A stretch of DNA of 64,000 nucleotides from Leadbetterella sp. (GTDB lineage Bacteria > Bacteroidota > Bacteroidia > Cytophagales > Spirosomataceae): assembly GCA_019638185.1 (NCBI GenBank), contig JAHBUH010000005.1, positions 152,825 to 216,824 of the forward strand, read 5' to 3'. Shown one piece after another: positions 11,385-21,956 of the stretch. A program made the position numbers and the translations under genes. The notes below the pieces were generated by a model. The model did no database searches and was not told the origin of the DNA. It was given only the letters and a program-made list of their open reading frames with translations. Positions within the stretch are counted from its first letter, which is position 1. Each line of letters begins with the position of its first letter.

Positions 11385-11687
11385 TTAATGCTCGTTAGGG
11401 TTATCTCCTTCTATTTCTTTCCGTTTAATGGCGTTAATGTTCATGATATAGATATAGGATTGCTCTATGCTGTTAAATAGTTCGATGCAGGTTTTGATAT
11501 TTTGATCATCTGCATTTTTAAAATCTTCTATTCTGATTCTCATCACTTCTCCGATCTCGCATTGGTCATTAAAGTCTGAAAATTCTCCGCTCATTGCCAG
11601 GTTAATAATGGTTATTTCTAATTCATCTAAAATGTTTTCCAGGGAGCGTACCAGACTGATCAGATTTTCCCGGTAAAGATTTTTCAT
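11385..11687 (-). CDS. Small acidic protein of unknown function, operator-linked
   Basis: 100 aa, no recognised family, no signal peptide and no membrane segment. It is Glu/Asp-rich and looks mostly alpha-helical (for example SLVRSLENILDELEITIINL). The gene is AT-rich, unlike the tricorn gene downstream. It starts at ATG 11687. About 40 bp upstream is a copy of the 17-bp dyad also found before the DnaB-like ATPase and the SLOG gene, so it probably belongs to the same regulon despite having its own promoter. A -7-like CACATTTG (minus strand, 11710-11717) sits between dyad and start. It could be an accessory or inhibitor of the neighbouring ATPase; that is inference from position only. Confidence 0.65.
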   Translation of the reverse strand: MKNLYRENLISLVRSLENILDELEITIINLAMSGEFSDFNDQCEIGEVMRIRIEDFKNADDQNIKTCIELFNSIEQSYIYIMNINAIKRKEIEGDNPNEH

Positions 11688-11709
11688 GATATACTGCGTT
11701 TGTTTTCTG

Positions 11710-11744
11710 CAAATGTGTCGATAATGTGCGCAGTGTATTTGCGC
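11710..11744 (-). promoter_or_regulatory. Operator O1 plus -7 box upstream of the small acidic protein
   Basis: The plus strand has GCGCA-GTGTATT-TGCGC at 11728-11744, an inverted repeat with 5-bp arms and a 7-bp centre. CAAATGTG follows towards the gene at 11710-11717 (minus-strand CACATTTG, close to the Bacteroidota -7 consensus TAnnTTTG). The distance from CAAATG to the dyad is the same as in the copy before the ATPase gene. The dyad occupies the -33 region, where no TTG is present. This fits either a repressor or an activator site. Confidence 0.6.
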
Positions 11745-11809
11745 CTGGGAATGTTTTTTATTCGACAGATTAAGGGGTAAACGTGAAGTTCCGTTTAAGG
11801 AAGAGTGTT

Positions 11810-12535
11810 TTAAAACGGAACAATATTATTTTCGTTTTTATCCAGGTACTTTCCTCCGGGAAAATACCAGAGCGGATATTTGAACTTTAGCCTGAAGTCA
11901 TCGCAGTCTTTTAAAAGCTTGGTTTTAGTGATGTACAAAAAAGCATCGTCATATTCAATCGGGTCATTGAACTTGTTTGTTTGAATAGGGTAACATGCGG
12001 GGCGATGAATAATCAGAAGATGATCTATATATTTTTCTTTGGACGAATAAAACCTAAAAGGAAAACCGTCTTCCACTCTTTTGTCAAGTAACGAAACTAA
12101 AATGATGTTTGTGTGTAAACTTTTTGCTAATACTTTCAGGTGCCTTAACACCAACTGATAGTTCTTATGTTCGCTAAAAAGAGGATTGACATCTTCTTCT
12201 AAGCTTCTCAGGTCGTCAATTACAAAATATTGAAAATTCCCTTTTTGAGTTACAATTAATTCCAGTAATTCGATCAGCGGAGGTCTGTCAATACAAATAG
12301 TATCATAGTTTTTTTTAGAGTCGGGGTATATATTCATTCTTTCTTTTTTATAGGCTATTTCCTCCGAGGATTCGCTTAAAGAGATAAAGCACACTTTTCT
12401 TGAACTATTACTTAATAAGTTCATAATAAATGACGTTTTCCCCATTCCCGGACGTCCACCCAACACAATTAACTCACCACTATCCAGATTAGTATTTTGT
12501 TCGATGAATGATAGATCAAGGTTGTATTCAAGCAT
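11810..12535 (-). CDS. DnaB-helicase-C-like / RecA-fold ATPase
   Basis: 241 aa. Walker A is GGRPGMGKTSF near residues 27-37, typical of the DnaB C-terminal domain. FISLSESSEEIAYKK follows at the position of the DnaB H1a motif, then Walker B as FVIDDLRSL, then a IILVSLLD strand. The length fits a lone RecA-fold domain without the DnaB N-terminal primase-binding part, so it is not the replicative helicase. It begins at ATG 12535 and carries its own dyad operator ~55 bp upstream. Same strand as, and ~114 bp downstream of, mcrC. Likely an ATP-driven DNA motor or nucleic-acid sensor in the defence-like island; partner proteins are inferred from shared regulation. Confidence 0.75.
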   Translation of the reverse strand: MLEYNLDLSFIEQNTNLDSGELIVLGGRPGMGKTSFIMNLLSNSSRKVCFISLSESSEEIAYKKERMNIYPDSKKNYDTICIDRPPLIELLELIVTQKGNFQYFVIDDLRSLEEDVNPLFSEHKNYQLVLRHLKVLAKSLHTNIILVSLLDKRVEDGFPFRFYSSKEKYIDHLLIIHRPACYPIQTNKFNDPIEYDDAFLYITKTKLLKDCDDFRLKFKYPLWYFPGGKYLDKNENNIVPF

Positions 12536-12572
12536 TGTTTTTCGGTTTTATAATTGTCATTCTGATATGATA

Positions 12573-12607
12573 CAAATGTGGAAGGATGGGGCGCAGTGTA
12601 TTTGCGT
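12573..12607 (-). promoter_or_regulatory. Operator O2 plus -7 box upstream of the DnaB-like ATPase
   Basis: The plus strand has GCGCA-GTGTATT-TGCGT at 12591-12607 and CAAATGTG at 12573-12580. The 12-bp core GCGCAGTGTATT and following TGCG are identical to O1, and the spacing to CAAATGTG is exactly the same. The intervening ten bases differ more than the two blocks, as expected of a functional two-part promoter element rather than a recent duplication. Confidence 0.6.
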
Positions 12608-12648
12608 TGGAGGGATGGATTTATATTTTAATTTTATATTCTAAATGG

Positions 12649-14052
12649 TTATTCATTGGTTTTTAGAGTATTAGTAATTCGCTGTATAAATACTTTTTCG
12701 GCTTCTATTAATGCTTTCATTGACTGATCGTTACGAACGTAAATACCATCAACTATAAATTTGATTTCGTTGCTATTATTCCCGTATAATGTTTCTGTAT
12801 GCGGCTCTTTAATATCTTTTGATAATGGGTAAAGCAGTCCACTTGCTATTAAGTTATTTCTATAATATCCTGAATAAGAATGTATTTGATGAAGATCATT
12901 TCTGTCAACGTCATTGTAAGTCATTTGCATTTTTTTGAATTTGGCATCAAATACGGCAATTTTTCCACTTTTTTTGTGCTCCATTACCAGATCAGGGAAT
13001 AAACGTCTTCTATAAAACTGATTTGGATAAATTCGTATTTCTTCTTGTCCATGGACAAACCAATCTGGGAAATTTCGACTTAAAAGTTTTTCAAGGTAGA
13101 GTTCAAATAATTCTGCAATGTCAAACAGATAACCACTTGTCGCCAAGTTTTGCTTTTCATTGTCGAACATTAGGTCTTTATTTAATAAAATTATTTCTGC
13201 ATACTCCAATACTTTTTTGAAACCACTATACATGGGGTTGTTAATAGTTTGATGAGTTTTGGCTTTTTGTATTGTTTCATAGTTAACAAATCGCCCGGAA
13301 TATTGTTGTTTTAATAATTGACTTAAACCCAGTAAACGACTATGAATTTCTCTGCCAAAAATACTTTCTAATTTCCTCAACGCTAAATGTAAAACATCAA
13401 CGATTTCTTGAATATACTTTTGTTCTCTGAAAGTTGTCGTTAGCTTCCCTTGAAACGGGATATCTCTTTTTAGATATTCATTAAAATTTATACTTCCTCG
13501 AACTTTTTGACTTCTTTCCTGATGTTTTTGATATTGCTGTGGTAAACCTAAAACAACTGCTTTTTCTAATGATTGAATGAATAAATGAGCAATGATAAAT
13601 AAAAACTGATTTTCTGTTTTGTCCTTTTTGGCTTTGACCATTTCATTTTCTACGTAAATGTCATTTACGAAGTTGAGCATACGTTTCAGAAAGGTGTCGC
13701 CATATTCTGTCGTGATATTGATTTTGCAGCCCTTGTAAAAAACAACACCAGCATACAAACCCGTTTGAATATAATATTCTTTTTCTTGGTTGATTCCTTC
13801 TTTGGAGTATAATTTCAGAATTAGACGTTCTTGATCTTGTTCAAAAATGCGATTGCGTTTGAAGTTAAATACTTTGACTTGTTTTGGTTGTTCTACTCCA
13901 AGTTTTAATTCATAGACTGATGAAAAAATTTGTTGTAATTTGTTTTTATTAGCCTTCGTGTCTTTTACGTTAAATTCCTTACACAAAGCCGATTCTGAAA
14001 TTGGAGCTTTTTTTTTATAAAAATTATGATTGACGGGACGGTTAATTTTCAT
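12649..14052 (-). CDS. mcrC: McrC-family restriction endonuclease subunit
   Basis: 467 aa, AT-rich. The C-terminal half has a PD-(D/E)XK nuclease core: FPDLVME near residue 354 and VFDAKFKK near 373 (Asp, Asp and Lys of the active site). The N-terminal region (DQERLILKLYSKEG, YAGVVFYKGCKINI) and the middle (SRLLGLSQLLKQQYSGRF) resemble McrC/LlaJI-type subunits. The ATG at 14052 overlaps the end of mcrB by 11 bp, so the two are translationally coupled. In McrBC systems McrC is recruited by the GTP-driven McrB ring and cuts modified or specific DNA. The recognised modification here cannot be read from sequence. Confidence 0.88.
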   Translation of the reverse strand: MKINRPVNHNFYKKKAPISESALCKEFNVKDTKANKNKLQQIFSSVYELKLGVEQPKQVKVFNFKRNRIFEQDQERLILKLYSKEGINQEKEYYIQTGLYAGVVFYKGCKINITTEYGDTFLKRMLNFVNDIYVENEMVKAKKDKTENQFLFIIAHLFIQSLEKAVVLGLPQQYQKHQERSQKVRGSINFNEYLKRDIPFQGKLTTTFREQKYIQEIVDVLHLALRKLESIFGREIHSRLLGLSQLLKQQYSGRFVNYETIQKAKTHQTINNPMYSGFKKVLEYAEIILLNKDLMFDNEKQNLATSGYLFDIAELFELYLEKLLSRNFPDWFVHGQEEIRIYPNQFYRRRLFPDLVMEHKKSGKIAVFDAKFKKMQMTYNDVDRNDLHQIHSYSGYYRNNLIASGLLYPLSKDIKEPHTETLYGNNSNEIKFIVDGIYVRNDQSMKALIEAEKVFIQRITNTLKTNE

Positions 14053-15895
14053 TTTTCCCTAAAGGTTTTTTAAATCTATTTAACGCTTCTTCTAATTTAT
14101 CATCTAATTCACGTTCTGTATGAAATGCTCTTAGATACTCTTTTAATGTTGGTCGTAAAAACAAGTTGAATAACTTTTCTACATTATCGGGTGTAATTTC
14201 TTTACGATTAGCTACATGGTTAATCTTCATAAAGAATGAATGACCAAACTCATAAGATTTACCAAGAGTTAATGTTTCTGTTTCTGTTTTAACAGGTTTG
14301 TTTTTATCATCTCTTCCTGATATATATTCGTTTAATAACTTACAAGCTTCTATATATTTATTGATATTATCATAATTCCCGTTATCTTCAATTACTTCAT
14401 AATCGCAATCTTTTCTTTCCCACTTAAATCTTCTGCGGAGTGCTAAATCAAAAGCATCAATACTTTTATCAACATCATTCATCATTCCGATAAAAAATAT
14501 ATTCTTAGGGATACCAAACTTTACTTCTCCACTTTTTTCATCATAATTATATGCTAATTTTTTATACTCACTATTATGAGGATTGTCTTCAATTAGCTGT
14601 TCTATAAGTGTCGAATATTGTGTTTTTACTAAATACTTTCCGCGTCCATCATCCCGGTAATCTTTTTCCAATAGTGACAAGGTTTCTCCAAATACAGTTG
14701 AAAGGTTTGCTCTGTTGATTTCATCCACAATAAAATAATATGTGGGCATTTCTTTTTTTTCATTTTTTGGTAATGCTTCCCATTCTATTAATGCTTCTTT
14801 TGCTTTGATACAAAATTTTTTGAAAACGCCATTTACCAATTCAAAACGAATATTCCCATTTTCAGAAACACCCTTGGGTTTTATGCCTTCAATAAAATCT
14901 TCGTATGTAAATGATGGGTGAAATTGTAAATATTCGTATCGTGATCTATCCCCATGACAAATAAACCCTAAACTATTACGAACTGAATAAGTTTTACCCG
15001 TCCCTGGGGGGCCATACATAATAACGTTGGGATTAAACTCGTCTATTATGTTTTTTGAGGTTATATAGCGTAGTAAGAAACGTGAAAGAAGAACGAGTTC
15101 AATCTTGTCTTCCCCAATGACATTTAATAATCCTTTTACTGCATTGCAGATATGGTGATTTTTTTCGAAAATACCCTTATCCTTGCCGCTATTACCAAAA
15201 AAGTCCTCATATAATTCTTCTATCCATGGTTCAGAATAGATAAATATGAAGTCTGACCAATTATCTAAAACAGCCAATTTCATTAGGATCTGCTTGGCAG
15301 CATAATCACCTCTGTTTACAATTCTGTCTACAATGTTAGCTTTTTTTTCTACATCAGTCTCTGTCACAATATCCTTAATCAACCCTTTTATTTTTTCGGC
15401 AAAAAAGTGTTTTGCTTCTTCGTATGTCGCTTTAGGATTGTTCTCTTTCTCAATGTGATAAGTTCCAGTATTATCATTATTGCGTTTTACTTCGAAGTTT
15501 TTAGCAAAACCTGGTTTAGAAGAGCCTAAGATCTCGCGAGTTGTTCGTTCTAAAAAGTTACATAAATACCCACCTGGTAAACCTTTAGTAGCATTATCCT
15601 TAGTATTTGTATAATCTTCTAATTCGAATGTGTCGTTTTCAATTTTATGTCTGTATTCTTCCCAATTGCCAATTAGTTCTTCAATCTTTTTCTTAAGGGA
15701 TTCTTTTTCTTTCTCGTTAACCCCATTTTTGAACGTTTTCCAAAGTTCTTTGATTAAATCTTGTCTCTCGGTTGATAATTTTATACTTTCCATAAGTGTT
15801 TTATTAACTACATTTTGTATTTGTTTTTTTAATTGATAATATTCCCCTTGGGTGAAGAATTGTGAAGTTATGAACTTAAAAATCAATACTGTCAA
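14042..15895 (-). CDS. mcrB: McrB-family AAA+ GTPase subunit
   Basis: 617 aa from a TTG at 15895, or 583 aa from ATG 15793. The 34 codons between look protein-like and the TTG lies 3 bp after the upstream stop, so the longer form is given, but the start is uncertain. Walker A is MYGPPGTGKTYSV (~295), Walker B is VDEINRANLSTVFGETL (~385). The McrB signature follows: GMMNDVDKSIDAFD with sensor ALRRRF (~470-485). The N-terminal ~250 residues contain a charged, coiled-coil-like stretch and no recognised methyl-DNA-binding domain, so its specificity is unknown. It forms an operon with mcrC. The gene is markedly more AT-rich than the DUF2779 gene directly upstream. Confidence 0.88.
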   Translation of the reverse strand: MTVLIFKFITSQFFTQGEYYQLKKQIQNVVNKTLMESIKLSTERQDLIKELWKTFKNGVNEKEKESLKKKIEELIGNWEEYRHKIENDTFELEDYTNTKDNATKGLPGGYLCNFLERTTREILGSSKPGFAKNFEVKRNNDNTGTYHIEKENNPKATYEEAKHFFAEKIKGLIKDIVTETDVEKKANIVDRIVNRGDYAAKQILMKLAVLDNWSDFIFIYSEPWIEELYEDFFGNSGKDKGIFEKNHHICNAVKGLLNVIGEDKIELVLLSRFLLRYITSKNIIDEFNPNVIMYGPPGTGKTYSVRNSLGFICHGDRSRYEYLQFHPSFTYEDFIEGIKPKGVSENGNIRFELVNGVFKKFCIKAKEALIEWEALPKNEKKEMPTYYFIVDEINRANLSTVFGETLSLLEKDYRDDGRGKYLVKTQYSTLIEQLIEDNPHNSEYKKLAYNYDEKSGEVKFGIPKNIFFIGMMNDVDKSIDAFDLALRRRFKWERKDCDYEVIEDNGNYDNINKYIEACKLLNEYISGRDDKNKPVKTETETLTLGKSYEFGHSFFMKINHVANRKEITPDNVEKLFNLFLRPTLKEYLRAFHTERELDDKLEEALNRFKKPLGKNEN

Positions 15896-15898
15896 TTT

Positions 15899-17374
15899 TT
15901 ATTTTGCTTTTTTAATTAACTTCCTCAACCTCCTCAAAATCATCACCATCGCCCAAGTATCCAGTTCACAATAAGCCAGCATATCTTTAATCAACTGCTC
16001 ATTATCATCATGCGGCTGATTATTAACAAAATGTTTGACATAGGCACTAAGCGCCTCGCCGCCATTAGATATGGCCATTCCCTTGTACGATAAATCGGCC
16101 ATTACGGGCAGTACTTTTTTGATGGAGCAAGAGCCTTGCTGGTCGGGATGGTAATAATAGAACTGCTTGAAGGGCGTGAGCAAATCCTGCATTCGGGCAG
16201 TTAAATCTTCGGCCCAGGTATGGTATTCGGGGGCTGCACTTGCCCATTCTGTTATCCTGCTCTTTTCAAAGGTTTCGTAAAAAGATAGTATGGTTCCTTG
16301 TGGGCCTATATCCCGGTGTAATTGACTAAATAAGGCCTTTCGGGGATCAGTGGAAGCCGTATGCAGGTACTCCCGATGCTCAATGGTGCCATCTGCCTGT
16401 TCTATATGAAGGGAGTATTGGAACGGTATCTGCATATAAGGCCGGGTGCCGTCAAAGGGCGGAATGGCGGGGTTGAAAGTCTCAAAATCTAAATGATAGA
16501 TGGGGTATTCAAGACCCTCGATAAACGCTCGTATTTGCTCGGGGTTAACATGGGGTTTCCCTGATAGGGCAGTTTCCTTTTGTATTAAATGCTTGTCCGG
16601 GGTTTGGTCATCTATAAGCAGGTCTTTGATCAGATGAATGCCCGAAGACCAGAGTCCTATCAGCTTTTTCTTTTGACCGCGATATAATTCAAAAACAGAG
16701 CCTTTGGGTAGAGCGGCGTTAAATTCATCTTTAAATACGTTACTGTATTCACCCTTAGTCAGGTCTTCAAGACGGAACTCGGGGCATACGGGCTGATCCA
16801 TGACGGCCAGCATCCTTTGTGCCAGTGCCGGAACCTGAAGAAGGAATTCGCTTACCTGTTCACTGACCTCTTCGAAGTAGAATAGATCCCGGGTAGAGAG
16901 TTCTCCCTGACGGATATACTGATTATTGACCAGCATCACCCGGACAGCATTAATTTTTAACCCGCATTTTTCCAGTACAAATCGTTGAAACGCCAAATCA
17001 TGAATGTGGGTTTCCTTCAGTTTGGTGGAGGATTTCACCTCGATGATGTCCCATTCCTCCTTCCCGGAAGGGACCAGGATATCTACCCTTACATAAAACC
17101 GGCTGGTGAGAAAGCCAGCTTCAAAAATAGGTTTGCGGTTCCTCAGGGCTAGACGGGTTTGCCGGATATTGGGAAGAAAATCGAAGGGAGTTAAGTCAAT
17201 ACCTTCCTCAAAATATTGTTGAGCTAATAGACCCACTTCTGTACCGCTTTCAAATATCTGTTGCGAAAAAGCATCCGGCGGAGGGATGGTTTCGGGCTGA
17301 TTGACCACACGCCACAAAAGGGCTTCGGAGTCTAAGCCGTTGAGAAATTTTGATTTGGTTAACAGTTTGGGCAT
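15899..17374 (-). CDS. DUF2779 protein: PD-(D/E)XK domain joined to a DEDD exonuclease-like domain
   Basis: 491 aa from ATG 17374. This start gives MPKLLTKSKFLNGL, the usual opening of the family, and removes an 89-bp overlap with the upstream gene; an ATG at 17467 would add 31 residues. Residues ~105-125 (EWDIIEVKSSTK) look like a Cas4/RecB-type PD-(D/E)XK centre. From ~290, YHLDFETFNP supplies the D-x-E of a DEDD exonuclease, and CELDTWAMVMILRRL near 465 gives a later acid. So the protein probably has two nuclease centres. It lacks the four Cys of Cas4-type Fe-S nucleases as far as I can see. The 4-bp gap from the SLOG gene indicates one operon. Role inferred: DNA processing in the defence-like island. 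Confidence 0.8.
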   Translation of the reverse strand: MPKLLTKSKFLNGLDSEALLWRVVNQPETIPPPDAFSQQIFESGTEVGLLAQQYFEEGIDLTPFDFLPNIRQTRLALRNRKPIFEAGFLTSRFYVRVDILVPSGKEEWDIIEVKSSTKLKETHIHDLAFQRFVLEKCGLKINAVRVMLVNNQYIRQGELSTRDLFYFEEVSEQVSEFLLQVPALAQRMLAVMDQPVCPEFRLEDLTKGEYSNVFKDEFNAALPKGSVFELYRGQKKKLIGLWSSGIHLIKDLLIDDQTPDKHLIQKETALSGKPHVNPEQIRAFIEGLEYPIYHLDFETFNPAIPPFDGTRPYMQIPFQYSLHIEQADGTIEHREYLHTASTDPRKALFSQLHRDIGPQGTILSFYETFEKSRITEWASAAPEYHTWAEDLTARMQDLLTPFKQFYYYHPDQQGSCSIKKVLPVMADLSYKGMAISNGGEALSAYVKHFVNNQPHDDNEQLIKDMLAYCELDTWAMVMILRRLRKLIKKAK

Positions 17375-17378
17375 ATTT

Positions 17379-17729
17379 TCAGGTAAATGTGTAAATAAAG
17401 GTACGAAATTCTTTTTGCGTTTTTTGGGAGTACTCAATGCTCCTTCGGGTACCGGCCGATTTTCCATCCCAAAATGCCACGATCAAATCGGCTTTGTCAA
17501 CAATCAGTCTGTTCCGAAAAATACCGGCCGATTTCCCATACTTTTTCCAATCGGGCAGCACTATTTCAATGGGTATATCGAATTCTTTCGCATACTTTTC
17601 GGCGAGTTGATCAGCACCTTTCGCACCACCCGAAATGATTTTTGTAATCCCCGGAAACAATTTCATTTTTTCTTTCAAATACGCATAATCGTTAAAATTA
17701 CGACTTCCAATTAGGGCTATTATCATCAT
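17379..17729 (-). CDS. SLOG-family protein (DUF2493-like)
   Basis: About 116 aa from ATG 17729 (17726 is an alternative). It opens with the Rossmann-type strand MMIIALIGSRNF. The family motifs follow: ISGGAKGADQLAEKYA (nucleotide-binding GG-x-GAD loop), LPDWKKYGKSAGIFRN and IVAFWDGKSAGT. SLOG proteins bind or hydrolyse nucleotide-derived ligands, and some act as sensors in antiphage systems. It is the first gene after operator O3 and directly precedes the DUF2779 nuclease, so a signalling or switch role is plausible but inferred. It is short, with no fused effector domain. Confidence 0.82.
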   Translation of the reverse strand: MMIIALIGSRNFNDYAYLKEKMKLFPGITKIISGGAKGADQLAEKYAKEFDIPIEIVLPDWKKYGKSAGIFRNRLIVDKADLIVAFWDGKSAGTRRSIEYSQKTQKEFRTFIYTFT

Positions 17730-17761
17730 CTTTGAATTAAAATCCAAAGAAAACAGCCGGT

Positions 17762-17778
17762 GTGCAGCCTATTTGCGC
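17762..17778 (-). promoter_or_regulatory. Operator O3 between the WYL gene and the SLOG gene
   Basis: The plus strand reads GTGCA-GCCTATT-TGCGC, a third copy of the dyad (GCGCA-N7-TGCGC) with two substitutions in the centre and one in an arm. It overlaps the WYL stop codon and lies 33 bp before the SLOG start. Towards the gene a minus-strand TTCTTTG sits about where CACATTTG sits in O1 and O2. It therefore likely controls the SLOG-DUF2779-mcrB-mcrC operon. Confidence 0.5.
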
Positions 17779-18788
17779 TATGAAAAATTATGGTAAGCCT
17801 TTTTGATTTTTTCTAAAATGGATTGTTTTAATTCTATGGGTTTAAGTACTTTTAAATGGTTAGAATGCGCTAGAACCCAGTTTTCCAGCTCCTGGTTAAT
17901 GACTAACCGGAAGCTGAATGTATAAACATGGGCATCGTTACATAATAATTGTTGGCTTTTGTGCAAAGGCTTAGTCAGCAGAAAAGGGGCAAAATCTGCA
18001 TCCACCTCGATACCAACCGTTTGAGCGGGTTGACCGGTATAGGTGATGCCCAGGGTATTACCAAAGTACTCTTCCGCATTAAAGTTTCCTTCCTGGTAGG
18101 TATAACCCACGGCTTCCGAAACCTCTTCCATACGGTCTAAAGCCAGGGTGATAATATATTTCCCCTGATCGTGCCAACCCAACAGGTACCAGCGCCCGTC
18201 AAATTCTTTTAGTAAATAGGGGTGGATGATGTGGTGTTTTACGGCGCTGTCTGTGAACTTCTTATAGCCGATGTGGAGTACGGTTTTAGTTTCAATATGA
18301 TTCAGTAATGATTGCAGGTAATGGATGCCCCTGGCCTCTTCGTCTTTTTCAAAAGAAATGGCGTATTGATTTTCTTCCTGTAACTTTATATACAGTTTAC
18401 TCTCAAATTTCCTGTAGATAGGATTAAGGTCGTTAAAGAAATCAAAACCTCTGTACTGTCCGAGAACTTTGGCCGCCGTACCGATAGCCCTGAAATCATT
18501 TTTATTTAACGTAGCGTTCTTGATAGAATAATCCGGGTCTTCATAAAAATACTGGCCATTTTCGGTTTTAATCGGAGCGAAATAACCCAAATCGCCCGAT
18601 CGCATAACTTTAATGTCGTTCTGGATGGTCCGTTTGGAAGGTATATTTCGGGTATCCCGGTGGGCCACTTCATCGGCATATTCCGCACAGGCATTGGCCA
18701 GTTCTTCCCAACTCCATTTTCTGTTACGCCTTTGCAGGCAATTATTAATGGTGTGGTAACGCAACAGGGCATCTAAATTTACAGGCAT
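17778..18788 (-). CDS. WYL-domain transcriptional regulator
   Basis: 336 aa, ATG at 18788. The N-terminal ~90 residues form a DNA-binding region (WSWEELANACAEYA, then RTIQNDIKVMR as a probable recognition helix). The WYL domain occupies ~160-330, with HIIHPYLLKEFDGRWYLLGW carrying the W-Y-L signature and TLALDRMEEV after it. WYL regulators of the BrxR/CapW kind repress or sense in phage-defence loci and bind inverted repeats as dimers. The operator dyads O1-O3 in this island have the right form. It is the promoter-distal boundary of the island. Whether it represses or activates cannot be read from sequence. Confidence 0.88.
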   Translation of the reverse strand: MPVNLDALLRYHTINNCLQRRNRKWSWEELANACAEYADEVAHRDTRNIPSKRTIQNDIKVMRSGDLGYFAPIKTENGQYFYEDPDYSIKNATLNKNDFRAIGTAAKVLGQYRGFDFFNDLNPIYRKFESKLYIKLQEENQYAISFEKDEEARGIHYLQSLLNHIETKTVLHIGYKKFTDSAVKHHIIHPYLLKEFDGRWYLLGWHDQGKYIITLALDRMEEVSEAVGYTYQEGNFNAEEYFGNTLGITYTGQPAQTVGIEVDADFAPFLLTKPLHKSQQLLCNDAHVYTFSFRLVINQELENWVLAHSNHLKVLKPIELKQSILEKIKKAYHNFS

Positions 18789-18840
18789 CGGGTTTAAGGT
18801 TTGAAGCTTGTAAAGTTAACCAAATTTCTCCTCACATAAA

Positions 18841-18878
18841 TCCGCCATTGAGGAGTAGGATACTTGCCTCCATATTTG
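18841..18878 (+). promoter_or_regulatory. Promoter of the response-regulator stump
   Basis: TCCGCCATTGA at 18841-18851 includes the -33 TTG (18848-18850), and the -7 box CATATTTG is at 18871-18878, 20 bp away. The arrangement and sequence match the promoter of the intact regulator at 21267-21304. It now drives only a 25-codon remnant. Confidence 0.6.
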
Positions 18879-18899
18879 TACGCTCAAAAGTCTGTGTAT

Positions 18900-18977
18900 A
18901 TGAGCCGAATCCGGGTATCTGTGTATGAAGATAACGTGCAACTGATCGAAATGCTGGGCTGGATTATCAAGCCATAA
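18900..18977 (+). pseudogene. 5' stump of a LuxR-type response-regulator gene
   Basis: Reads MSRIRVSVYEDNVQLIEMLG then WIIKP and a stop. This matches the first 23 residues of the regulator at 21324 (MARIRVSVYEDNVQL...LGWII). Homology extends ~80 bp upstream through the promoter and ends abruptly near 18972, where AT-rich DNA of the Fic block begins. The differences from the intact copy show it is an older paralogue, not a fresh duplication. It marks the left edge of an insertion or deletion event. Confidence 0.75.
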
Positions 18978-18993
18978 TTTCGTATTCATTGTT

Positions 18994-20088
18994 TTACTTT
19001 CCCTCTAAAATTTTCAACAATCGTTCATTCAAATACAATTTTTCTTTACCGACTTTTACTGATTTCAAAAAGCTGTTTTCTTCTAATGCTATCAAATAAT
19101 TTCCGACTGTTTTGGGGTTTCCGATATTTTCATCAATTAAGTGTTGGCGTTTGGTGTAAGGCAACCGAAACAAAATTTCAACTAAATCTTTGGAATATAT
19201 TTTTGGCAATTTTGTTTTTATTTCTTCTGCGGTTTTGTCTATGACTTTTGTGAATTTATTCAACCGTTCTAAACCTCTTGCAGAAGTTTCCTCAATCATA
19301 TCTAACATATACAAAATGTAGTTTTCCCAATCGTTTTTTTCGGTTACACTACGCAAATTTTTGTAATAATCCACTTTGTTTTTAATGATGTATTCACTCA
19401 AATAAATGGCTGGTGTATCGAGTAAACCCGAAAGTTTGAGGTATAGCAATAATAAAATCCGTCCTGTTCTTCCGTTACCGTCTGCAAATGGGTGGATTGC
19501 CTCAAATTGGTAGTGCATTAACGCCATCTTTATCAATGGGTCAATAGTATCATCTTCATTGATGAACTTTTCCAAATTTACCAATTTTTCACGAATAACG
19601 GCTTCGCCACTTGGTGGCGTATAAATTACTTCGCCTTTTGTGTTGCTCAAAGTTGTTCCGGGTGTAACCCGAATTGAAGCGGTGTTTTGTTTGATACATT
19701 GAACAATGCTTATGCAAAGGTTGGTTGTGATAAACGGCTTTTTCTTTAACTGTTCCAAACCGAACCAAAGAGCTTCTTTATAGCTCAATACTTCTTTGGT
19801 GGCTGAATTTTCAACTTTTTTGTCTGCAACCAACGATTTGTAAAGTTCATCATTGGTTGTGATGATATTTTCTACTTCCGAACTTGCCTTTGCTTCTTGA
19901 AGATAAATCGTGTCTAAAAACAAAGTTGGATTGGGTAAATTCTTCAAAGTCCCGTTCAGTTGAGCCAATGCTCTACCTGCCGAAATCGTTTTACGCAATA
20001 TCTCTTTTGTTTCTACATCTGCGTTTGGCGGCAATAAAGGCAGGTCGTTGTATGGTATATTTTTATCAAATTTGCTCATTTCGTTCAA
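18994..20088 (-). CDS. Class II Fic-domain protein (probable AMPylase) with C-terminal winged helix
   Basis: 364 aa. The catalytic loop HPFADGNGRTGR at ~199-210 fits HxFx(D/E)GNGRxxR completely, so the enzyme should be competent. The N-terminal inhibitory helix carries SSEVEN (~70), matching (S/T)xxxE(G/N), which places it in class II (self-inhibited). The C-terminal ~60 residues (TKRQHLIDENIGNPKTVGN) look like a winged helix. Function known for the family: transfer of AMP or another nucleotide to protein Ser/Thr/Tyr. AT-rich, alone on its transcript, with repeated inverted sites just upstream that suggest autoregulation. The target protein is unknown. No small antitoxin gene is visible next to it. 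Confidence 0.9.
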   Translation of the reverse strand: MNEMSKFDKNIPYNDLPLLPPNADVETKEILRKTISAGRALAQLNGTLKNLPNPTLFLDTIYLQEAKASSEVENIITTNDELYKSLVADKKVENSATKEVLSYKEALWFGLEQLKKKPFITTNLCISIVQCIKQNTASIRVTPGTTLSNTKGEVIYTPPSGEAVIREKLVNLEKFINEDDTIDPLIKMALMHYQFEAIHPFADGNGRTGRILLLLYLKLSGLLDTPAIYLSEYIIKNKVDYYKNLRSVTEKNDWENYILYMLDMIEETSARGLERLNKFTKVIDKTAEEIKTKLPKIYSKDLVEILFRLPYTKRQHLIDENIGNPKTVGNYLIALEENSFLKSVKVGKEKLYLNERLLKILEGK

Positions 20089-20373: not shown

Positions 20374-21135
20374 TCATAAGTTGTATCTTATTACTTGTGC
20401 AGCACCTCTCTGTTTCAAGTGAGCAACAGATTTGTTTATGTAGAGGTTTCTAATTTCGTCTGGTGCTACATTACCGTCAAAACCATAACCTGTTACTTCT
20501 ACTTGGATTTTGATATTTTTTTCCTTGTCAATGGTCTTGTTCTTGGGTCTTTGTTTTGGATACCAATTTTTAACTTCAAAAACTTCAACGATTAGTCCTC
20601 TAAACTCACTCAAAACATATTTGATTTGAGGTAATCTCCATTCACTAATTAGCCAAGTTTCTTTTGTCGCTTGATAAATTGGATTTGTTCCGTTACCACG
20701 TTTATATGTTTTGTTTATGTTAATTAACACACAATCAGCACTCATTTCATTTAGTGGTTGTGCATTGTAAAGTCTTATGATTTCTTCTGAAGTCATAAGA
20801 CCTTTTTCTATGGAATTATGTCCACCAACTATGTTTGAAAGTAAAAGTCCGCAATAAGTCAATGTGTCAATTAAAGATGCTTCAATTTGAAATGCTTCGC
20901 TTTCCGAAAGACCGTGTCTAACAATAATGTGCTTTACGGTTTGTCCGCTTTGGACAATTTCTCTTATTTTGTCGTATTTTGCACTTGAAGTGTCTATGTC
21001 TGTTAATGCACAAGCTAAATGATTGAATACTCTATTGTCAATACCCTTACCAATGTAAAAAGGTTTATTGTCTGTTGGGTCAAGCAACATATAAACGTAA
21101 TACTTTAATTCTTGCCTTGATTTTTCGTCAAACAT
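20374..21135 (-). CDS. GIY-YIG nuclease-domain protein
   Basis: 253 aa. The N-terminal ~90 residues hold a GIY-YIG core: YVYMLLDPTD, then PFYIGKGIDNRVFNH, followed by VRHGLSESEAFQIEASLI, where the Glu of the family can sit. The remaining ~150 residues (SADCVLININKTYK onwards) are not recognised. No signal peptide or membrane segment. AT-rich like the Fic gene, in the same orientation, separated from it by the attC-like hairpin. It may be a mobile or defence-associated nuclease; no reading of its target is possible. Confidence 0.78.
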   Translation of the reverse strand: MFDEKSRQELKYYVYMLLDPTDNKPFYIGKGIDNRVFNHLACALTDIDTSSAKYDKIREIVQSGQTVKHIIVRHGLSESEAFQIEASLIDTLTYCGLLLSNIVGGHNSIEKGLMTSEEIIRLYNAQPLNEMSADCVLININKTYKRGNGTNPIYQATKETWLISEWRLPQIKYVLSEFRGLIVEVFEVKNWYPKQRPKNKTIDKEKNIKIQVEVTGYGFDGNVAPDEIRNLYINKSVAHLKQRGAAQVIRYNL

Positions 21136-21266
21136 TGGATTAACTAATTTTCTTTTTTACTTACTCTGGTCGGTTTTCAGCTTCCCCGTTTTCTGCAAAA
21201 ATCGTTTGTTTTTCTGTTACCCCATAGTATATTTACCTCCACCCCAAAAAAAATCTCTCACATAAA

Positions 21267-21304
21267 TCCGTCATTGAGCAGAACCTCCCTTCCCCTTATA
21301 TTTG
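21267..21304 (+). promoter_or_regulatory. Promoter and shared box of the response regulator
   Basis: TCCGTCATTGA at 21267-21277 contains the -33 TTG (21274-21276). The -7 box TATATTTG at 21297-21304 fits TAnnTTTG, with a 20-bp spacer. The TCCGYMATTGA box at the same distance (30 bp) from -7 recurs in the stump promoter and in the promoter of the downstream operon. Confidence 0.65.
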
Positions 21305-21323
21305 TACGTTAAAAATCAATCGT

Positions 21324-21956
21324 ATGGCCCGGATCCGAGTGTCAGTGTATGAAGATAACGTCCAGCTGAGTGAAACGCTGGGCTGGATCATTGAGTCCAG
21401 TGATGAGCTGGTGCTAACCGGCACGCATCTTCATCCGGTTCATGTAGCGGAAGAGGTGGCAATGGAGCTGCCTGATGTGATCCTGATGGATATTGAGATG
21501 CCGCAGATGTCGGGCATAGAGGCTTTACGGGAGATTTCGGAGCGGGCGGCTTATATGCCCAAGGTGCTGATGTTTACGGTGTTTGAAGATACGGAAAAGA
21601 TTTTTGAGGCTATTAAAGCCGGGGCTGTGGGTTACCTGCTGAAGAGCACCTCCGGCGAAAAGATCATTGAGAGCATCCTGGAAGTGGCCAAAGGCGGGGG
21701 TGCCATGAGCCCTTCTATTGCACTGAAGGTGCTCAGCTCCTTTCATGAACCCAAACAGAACCCCTACGGGCTTACCGAACGCGAGGTGGAGGTACTGCGC
21801 CGGCTGGTGGAGGGCGACAGCTATAAGTTGATTGCCGCACACTTTGACCTCAGTATTAATACGGTGGAAAAGCACATTCTTCATATTTACCAGAAACTGC
21901 GGGTAAATTCTAAGGGGGAGGCTATTACGAAGGCCTACCGGGATAAACTTTTGTGA
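21324..21956 (+). CDS. NarL/LuxR-type response regulator
   Basis: 210 aa. The receiver domain has the acidic YEDN pair near residues 9-12 and the phosphoacceptor Asp in VILMDIEMP (~57). The switch Thr is in MFTVFED and the Lys in GYLLKSTSG. The LuxR-type helix-turn-helix lies at ~145-205 (LTEREVEVLRRLVEG, then LSINTVEKHILHIYQKL). No histidine kinase is encoded nearby, so its partner is elsewhere. It lies 73 bp upstream of the envelope operon and both promoters share a box, so it probably controls that operon and itself. Confidence 0.92.
   Translation: MARIRVSVYEDNVQLSETLGWIIESSDELVLTGTHLHPVHVAEEVAMELPDVILMDIEMPQMSGIEALREISERAAYMPKVLMFTVFEDTEKIFEAIKAGAVGYLLKSTSGEKIIESILEVAKGGGAMSPSIALKVLSSFHEPKQNPYGLTEREVEVLRRLVEGDSYKLIAAHFDLSINTVEKHILHIYQKLRVNSKGEAITKAYRDKLL

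Follow-up and report, generated by a model that had tools for sequence, protein, structure and literature searches.

The stretch of DNA analysed here (the window, 64,000 nucleotides of a contig of Leadbetterella sp., Acc. No. JAHBUH010000005.1) contains an island of seven genes that encode a WYL regulator, a SLOG protein, a DUF2779 protein, McrB, McrC, a RecA-fold ATPase, and a small acidic protein, and that share a palindromic sequence, the WYL box, in three copies. The listing of open reading frames (ORFs) confirms the minus strand and the order given in the initial annotation for all seven genes, and the gene families named there are borne out by Pfam and NCBIfam searches, the acidic protein being without a family above the cut-off.

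The WYL gene (17778–18788; minus strand, as are all features of the island) encodes a 336 aa regulator, probably of the HTH-WYL-WCX type. Its WYL and WCX matches (4e-11 and 3e-7) are above the Pfam cut-off; Pfam HTH models gave no match, and the presence of the N-terminal HTH is suggested by the length of the protein and its full-length alignment to relatives. The stop codon of this gene is immediately followed by the first box with its putative promoter P1 (17745–17777; CGCAAATAGGCTGCA), which faces the gene of the SLOG/YAcAr protein (17379–17747; Pfam YAcAr, 6e-11). As the TTG listed as the start of the latter falls within the -7-like element of the promoter, translation probably begins at ATG 17729. 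The DUF2779 gene (15899–17467; likely start at ATG 17374) matches Pfam PF11074 (4e-43), its Cas4-type match (3e-4) being below the cut-off, and is predicted to encode a dual nuclease with an N-terminal Cas4-like region and a C-terminal DEDD-type exonuclease domain. Passages of PMC3985635 group this family with presumed 3'-5' exonucleases and describe it as containing DUF83. The AAA+ motor McrB (14042–15895; likely start at ATG 15793) matches Pfam AAA_5 (2e-16) and NCBIfam McrB (3e-33, below the cut-off of that model), and no Pfam match was obtained for an N-terminal base-sensing domain. It is adjacent to the PD-(D/E)XK nuclease McrC (12649–14052; Pfam McrBC/McrC, 9e-34), as in McrBC of type IV restriction. 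The corrected starts of the SLOG, DUF2779, and McrB genes are deduced from the ORFs and the promoter geometry. Motifs are readable in the translations of McrB (GPPGTGKT, DEINRAN, and MNDVDKS), McrC (PDLV...FDAK), and the DUF2779 protein (VDILV...EVK, LDFET, and YCELD); with the catalytic meaning that we take them to have in their families, they would fit working enzymes.

The second box, with its putative promoter P2 (12573–12606; CGCAAATACACTGCG), faces the gene of a 241 aa DnaB/KaiC-type RecA-fold ATPase (11810–12535; Pfam DnaB_C, 1.5e-13). The size of this protein, its unmatched helicase N-terminal domain, an NCBIfam DnaB score far under the cut-off, and a best DnaB_C stretch of residues 15–62 only indicate that it is not a full replicative DnaB. 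The third box, with P3 (11710–11743; also CGCAAATACACTGCG), faces the gene of the 100 aa acidic protein (11385–11687). The latter is probably helical, although its structure prediction from a single sequence is of low confidence (pLDDT 62.6), and both this model and that of the ATPase (pLDDT 40.2) are too poor for fold searches.

The palindrome CGCA-N7-TGC(G/A) is located just before the SLOG, ATPase, and acidic genes (17762–17778, 12591–12607, and 11728–11744, respectively), so that the common operator proposed in the initial annotation is real. The copies have the form CGCAAATA-N2-CTGC(G/A), with the first letter A-flanked in one of them, and begin 48, 71, and 56 nt before the respective gene starts. 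Each is followed, at +29 (SLOG) or +30 (ATPase and acidic) from the box start, by TTTG, which we take to be the final part of the -7 element of Bacteroidota (consensus TAnnTTTG). With up to one mismatch, the three-copy pattern has no other site in the 4.2-Mb genome; six more sites appear at two mismatches, and the reversed control of this pattern gives three. The box combined with TTTG, in a pattern that allows the +29 distance because of P1, occurs at three sites, all in the island and facing its genes, vs. none for the control. In this genome, the box-promoter pattern is confined to the island.

Occurrence of the box in other genomes points to its link with the regulator. Depending on the gene, relatives were searched in 247 genomes of the class, 194 genomes of the order, or 187 other sampled genomes of the phylum, the counts for the class and the order including the genome of the window. 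Relatives of the window WYL protein were found in 104 of the 194 order genomes at 1e-20, the best being 36–41% identical. Of the 61 matches that scored best next to the own locus, 59 were examined (two, from G380 and G430, were left out); in 35 of these loci, CGCA-N7-TGCG is present no more than 600 bp from, or inside, the called WYL ORF. When spacers of 3 to 12 were scanned at the first 20 of these loci, spacer 7 gave 12 near sites and any other spacer at most two; spacer 5, that of the BrxR type, gave two near sites in one locus. The consensus box is present in 55 of the 194 order genomes (100 sites vs. 11 for the reversed control pattern), namely in 43 of 68 genomes with a close WYL relative (E below about 1e-45) vs. 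12 of 126 without it (p = 5e-15) and, if all WYL hits are counted, in 49 of 104 vs. 6 of 90 (p = 1e-10), these p values ignoring kinship between genomes. The corresponding values for the control pattern are 6 of 68 vs. 4 of 126 (p = 0.10) and 8 of 104 vs. 2 of 90 (p = 0.11). At the level of sequence, these counts show that the box and this WYL family are associated.

A similar picture emerges from plasmids. A search with the window WYL protein returned 26 records, and 12 of the 15 that were listed, all from Bacteroidota, were examined. A looser box, GCA-N7-TGC, with TTTG at 29–31 is present beside the WYL gene in eight of the 12 loci, where 0.43 would be expected judging by the remaining parts of these stretches. 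In plasmids of Myroides and Chryseobacterium, like in the window, the WYL stop codon is where the box begins; behind it are a DNA methylase gene in one case and, in the other, a hypothetical gene with a DEAD/DEAH helicase gene next to it. According to our reading of the annotations, nine of the 11 annotated plasmid WYL loci are of defence type, comprising ThiF, Mov34, or ubiquitin-like operons, in some cases accompanied by patatin, a type III-B CRISPR locus, or DNA methylases. In L362, L363, L364, L369, and L371, the box is divergent from the plasmid WYL gene and faces an operon that contains ThiF or Mov34, and patatin genes are close by in L364 and L369.

The distance between the box and the putative promoter element is fixed in most cases. 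Boxes from 81 fetched loci were oriented by their A-rich strand, and 66 of 73 boxes, which fit this form, were kept. TTTG begins exactly at +30 from the box start in 54 of the 66 and, after thinning to 53 sites with less than 60% flank identity, in 41 of 53, the next best position accounting for four. The A-rich tract upstream of the box is conserved, and the sequence between the box and TTTG is mostly variable. A sense-strand ORF starts within 35–300 nt of 46 of the 66 boxes, mostly at 51–83 nt. As the antisense side has an ORF start near 43 of the 66, this count alone gives no direction, which we argue from TTTG and from the tight gene-start distances instead. The strict pattern, with TTTG at +30, has 137 sites in 73 of the 194 order genomes (two of them in the own genome), vs. 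11 for the control; generic sigma-70 and terminator scans performed at chance level. We also considered the box as a recombination site or a plain repeat and judged this unlikely, because the box has promoter geometry and accompanies WYL genomes.

Because the spacing between the box and TTTG is fixed, we favour, with fair confidence, a role of the WYL protein as an activator rather than a repressor. The same regulon could also be governed by a BrxR/CapW-like repressor, released by a ligand made in the course of infection and otherwise keeping costly nucleases silent. BrxR is a WYL protein that, according to passages of PMC9122601, has inverted repeats as its binding sites and acts as a repressor in a defence island. 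The position of the box alone would be compatible with repression, as a protein bound between the promoter elements could simply block the polymerase. CapW, another WYL protein, is reportedly a repressor as well. Yet the exact distance to TTTG, the variable sequence in between, and the A-rich upstream tract resemble an activator-dependent promoter, and the sense strand of the box contains no TTTG usable as a -33 element, which is an argument from pattern. On balance, repression seems unlikely to us.

The genes found behind the box elsewhere broaden the range of its putative functions. Stretches around 20 and then 40 more remote boxes were hand-picked from both box lists, so the frequencies of downstream genes mean little. 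A gene encoding a TROVE (Ro60) protein is downstream of the box in L234, L235, L238, L285, L299, L300, and L308, RtcB in L228 (454 nt away), Hen1 in L224, L289, and L301 (and, further down, in L300), T4-type RNA ligase in L296, and, in L278, an AddA-like helicase that also gave a weak nuclease match. In L277 (3978–5126) and L279 (2679–4003), recA stands behind a box with the promoter element, at 93 and 227 nt, respectively, hinting at a WYL-controlled recA in some Bacteroidota. In L222 a DNA methylase gene is on the strand opposite to the box, beside an integrase gene, and many other genes downstream of boxes have no Pfam match. Within the 40 stretches, an ORF starts within 400 nt of 29 of 41 boxes, and genes of the island were not matched except for a Fic-type one. 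At the 59 WYL loci, RtcB or TROVE is present within the fetched stretch in 30 (RtcB in 20, TROVE in 12), and none has a DUF2779, McrB, or SLOG match. In L224 (5089–9144), the Hen1-type gene (Pfam Hen1_L, 1.5e-108) starts 77 nt past the box, and the 858 aa product of the gene behind it may be Pnkp, judging from size and position only. Genomes G340 and G288 (L219–L222 and L227) contain 10 and six consensus boxes, several of them in repeated gene sets with integrase and DNA methylase; possibly, a family of mobile elements carries the box along.

Such neighbours of the box (RtcB, TROVE, Hen1, T4-type RNA ligase, recA, and the AddA-like helicase-nuclease) would also suit a regulon of repair rather than defence, in which the WYL family serves mainly nucleic acid repair, the DUF2779, SLOG, and ATPase proteins of the window are repair proteins, and McrBC is an accidental insertion. 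What speaks against it is that plasmid relatives of the window WYL gene accompany ubiquitin-like, CRISPR, and DNA methylase clusters, and that McrBC, as well as the SoFic and PD-T4-3 genes next to the island (see below), are of defence type. We regard a pure repair regulon as rather unlikely, if somewhat less so than repression.

The genes of the island have different distributions. A two-row McrC alignment searched in named genomes revealed McrC relatives of 49–77% identity at 15 loci, in Acinetobacter pittii, an Ignavibacteriales bacterium, Pseudodesulfovibrio, and, for the remainder, Bacteroidota, so that some of the 15 organisms are presumably outside this phylum. McrB adjoins McrC in 14 of them, the 15th being on a 3.3-kb contig that begins inside McrC. 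No relative of the WYL, SLOG, ATPase, or acidic protein was found by blastp (E up to 1e-4) at any of the 15 loci, with flanks of up to 10 kb per side, shorter where contigs end; one locus has two DUF2779 pieces several kb off. McrB reached the cut-off in four of the 247 class genomes, the single full-length relative (64%) being that of G206, whose contig is probably the same record as L349, one of the 15 McrC loci.

DUF2779 is present in 79 of the 247 class genomes. Its 19 best-scoring class loci (including L074, where the DUF2779 gene was not among the called ORFs) gave no match to McrBC or SLOG; a WYL gene is directly upstream on the same strand in two, from one genus, divergent in one, and two genes off in another one. 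The WYL-DUF2779 link of L071 and L072 was considered and is probably separate from that of the window, as their WYL proteins are outside the well-supported clade of the window WYL protein (midpoint rooting); in L072 only one box, facing DUF2779, has TTTG in place, and the box of L071 has no TTTG at +30. In L085 (6930–9482), from another class member, a DUF2779 gene is directly followed by a gene of a 308 aa DnaB_C-type ATPase. SLOG was found in three of the 247 class genomes, with no match to other island genes within the 3.3-kb stretches at the two remaining loci. Its matches in 692 phage records, each below 60% identity, show only that this family is common in phages.

The ATPase search gave matches in 31 of the 247 class genomes, nearly all replicative DnaB judging by frame length, and a two-row profile matched 179 of the 194 order genomes, mostly in frames of DnaB size; in genome contigs and viral contigs (searched for close relatives only), as well as in plasmids and phages, all matches were to DnaB. 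One relative clear of replicative DnaB, in G212, is 29% identical and immediately behind a WYL gene, the product of which is only 23% identical to the window WYL protein. Relatives of the acidic protein were found neither in the 187 other phylum genomes nor in plasmids, nor in viral contigs, the latter searched for close relatives only. In the samples searched, the ATPase and acidic genes are near-orphans.

Hence, within the samples examined, the seven genes do not form a conserved seven-gene system: the search for their order in other genomes, suggested in the initial annotation, did not reveal the set at a second locus among the DUF2779, WYL, and McrC loci sampled, and the PADLOC models, also proposed there, gave only weak or generic matches to the seven genes, with no single named system matched. 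The shared boxes and the contiguous order on one strand could still be taken as signs of a single new defence system, in which all products build one machine under one operator. Considering the 15 McrC loci without WYL, SLOG, ATPase, and acidic relatives, the 59 WYL loci without DUF2779, McrB, and SLOG, and the unequal GC content of the parts (31% in McrBC, 46% in DUF2779, and 35% in the ATPase and acidic genes), we find this highly improbable.

The island also differs in base composition from its surroundings, with a GC content of 31–46% across the seven genes vs. 52–53% in four flanking genes. Upstream of it are a SoFic gene (18994–20088; PADLOC, 2.6e-109) and, upstream of the latter, a PD-T4-3-like GIY-YIG gene (20374–21135; PADLOC, 1.4e-55), which extend the island in this direction; the genome-wide pattern scan showed no box-promoter site before either of them. 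A broken start of a response-regulator gene is located beside the WYL gene (18831–18967) and resembles the region 21257–21391, with the intact gene at 21324 (identity of 83% in a 69-nt part and 76% in a 59-nt part). The broken copy is likely an edge of earlier insertions or deletions. When an empty site was sought by comparison, 23 of the 41 genomes of the family, including that of the window, had a match to the flanking tricorn-type gene, and none of nine neighbourhoods matched the other flank.

The GC differences between modules, the broken response-regulator start adjoining the island, and the known single-gene defence candidates next door could each be cited for a hotspot in which mobile genes without relation or functional link have come together by chance. 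The initial annotation itself named this outcome in case McrBC occurred alone or the other genes scattered. Such a distribution is largely what we found, but the conclusion of chance is not right either, because the WYL boxes give the three transcription units the appearance of a single regulon. With three matching boxes that are unique in the genome and face these units in promoter geometry, a chance grouping is very unlikely.

Taken together, our results make it probable that the island is a WYL-controlled mosaic regulon of defence and repair, assembled from separately acquired parts, and not one machine. The WYL protein, which is probably of the HTH-WYL-WCX type, like PafBC and SiwR, would bind the palindromic box, which keeps a fixed distance from the -7-like element and sits about where a -33 element would be expected in the three promoters. 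Its WYL domain, by analogy to relatives, would sense a product of nucleic acid damage (single-stranded DNA or RNA ends) and thereby turn on P1 (SLOG and DUF2779, possibly into McrBC), P2 (the DnaB-like ATPase), and P3 (the acidic protein). The products, which may act against phages, would attack invading or damaged nucleic acid: McrBC by cutting modified DNA, the DUF2779 protein by trimming ends, the SLOG protein by making or sensing a nucleotide signal, and the ATPase and acidic protein as accessories. McrBC would be a mobile passenger, possibly transcribed from P1 by read-through; no terminator-like site was found in the 105-nt gap between DUF2779 and McrB by a scan that finds no more than chance.

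To the case for a repressor, which counts against this interpretation, several observations must be added. The 105-nt gap ahead of McrB may hold a separate promoter for this gene. The exact box is missing within 600 bp in 24 of the 59 WYL relatives, and the looser box with TTTG is missing at four of the 12 plasmid loci. At 20 more distant WYL loci, where neither RtcB nor TROVE was matched, the box with TTTG was present within about 3 kb in only seven, in one of them inside the WYL gene. The consensus form of the relatives has no match in the own genome, as the window boxes differ in the spacer, and the outer half-site letters of the window boxes deviate from CTR/YAG of the relatives. Finally, the window WYL protein is on a long branch (1.52), for which reason its specificity was judged from the boxes, and the placing of L113 and L153 as the nearest WYLs in the tree is tentative. 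The P1 box fits the form GCARATAGGCTGC, as do the boxes before one recA, before the AddA-like gene, and beside L113; the box of the other recA and those of L153 are near this form, and P2 and P3 share only CGCAAATA.

On a wider scale, we tentatively propose, at somewhat less than even chances, that the box marks a widespread LexA-independent regulon of nucleic acid damage in Bacteroidota, run by a PafBC-like WYL activator with the box 15 nt before the -7 TTTG. It would control RNA repair (RtcB, Ro60, and Hen1), recA and AddA-like repair in some genomes, and box-carrying mobile defence plug-ins, including the window island. If this is true, the sensing of damage is coupled in the island to type IV restriction and to a dual nuclease. 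As for the island itself, a shared switch, not a shared machine, would be the reason for unrelated genes standing side by side. To our knowledge, the timing of defence-gene expression in Bacteroidota seems little studied; an explicit box with fixed promoter geometry would allow listing the genes under WYL sensors from sequence alone.

As the initial annotation supposed, the combination of genes is not named in any of the libraries or the literature searched. A description of the box or the regulon was not found in the open PMC library, as represented by titles, abstracts, and passages, a scope that does not include the work of Burroughs and Aravind 2016 on RNA repair. WYL control of defence islands is already known; the box, its geometry, and the gene combination appear to be new variants.

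Several known systems resemble parts of the island. Loci of RNA repair (RtcB, Ro60/TROVE, and Hen1) have the same WYL family and the same kind of box, but the window island is without a gene for RNA ligase, TROVE, or Hen1. McrBC of type IV restriction likewise has McrC adjacent to an AAA+ McrB with what we take to be the motifs of the family, but in the McrB of the window the N-terminal base-sensing domain is not recognised by Pfam. Like the DUF2779 (PF11074) proteins described in passages of PMC3985635, the protein of the island combines a DUF2779 domain with a Cas4/DUF83-like region, but the 19 class loci are without McrBC or SLOG, and only the two of one genus have WYL directly upstream, as here. 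The mosaic defence islands governed by the WYL regulators BrxR and CapW also have inverted-repeat operators (for BrxR, see passages of PMC9122601). However, the repeats of BrxR, a repressor, are 11 bp long with a 5-bp spacer according to the same passages, and the window boxes do not conform to this operator type, having shorter half-sites, spacer 7, and a fixed distance to the promoter element.

In regulation, the island resembles SiwR and PafBC, which are WYL-domain activators of mycobacteria and HTH-WYL regulators with WCX. According to passages of PMC10693628, SiwR activates the operon next to its own gene, and its binding site, an imperfect palindrome of 19 bp, is located between -35 and -10, in the approximately 60 bp that separate its gene from this operon; PafBC works through sigma adaptation. 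The PafBC-like class A is, in passages of PMC6789036, prominent in Actinobacteria, Firmicutes, and Bacteroidetes. The island shares with them a palindrome between promoter elements, here as read from the DNA only. It differs from them in the consensus of the relatives, CTRCGCA-N7-TGCGYAG, in the Bacteroidota-type -7 element, and in the predicted targets, which are nuclease, SLOG, and ATPase genes.

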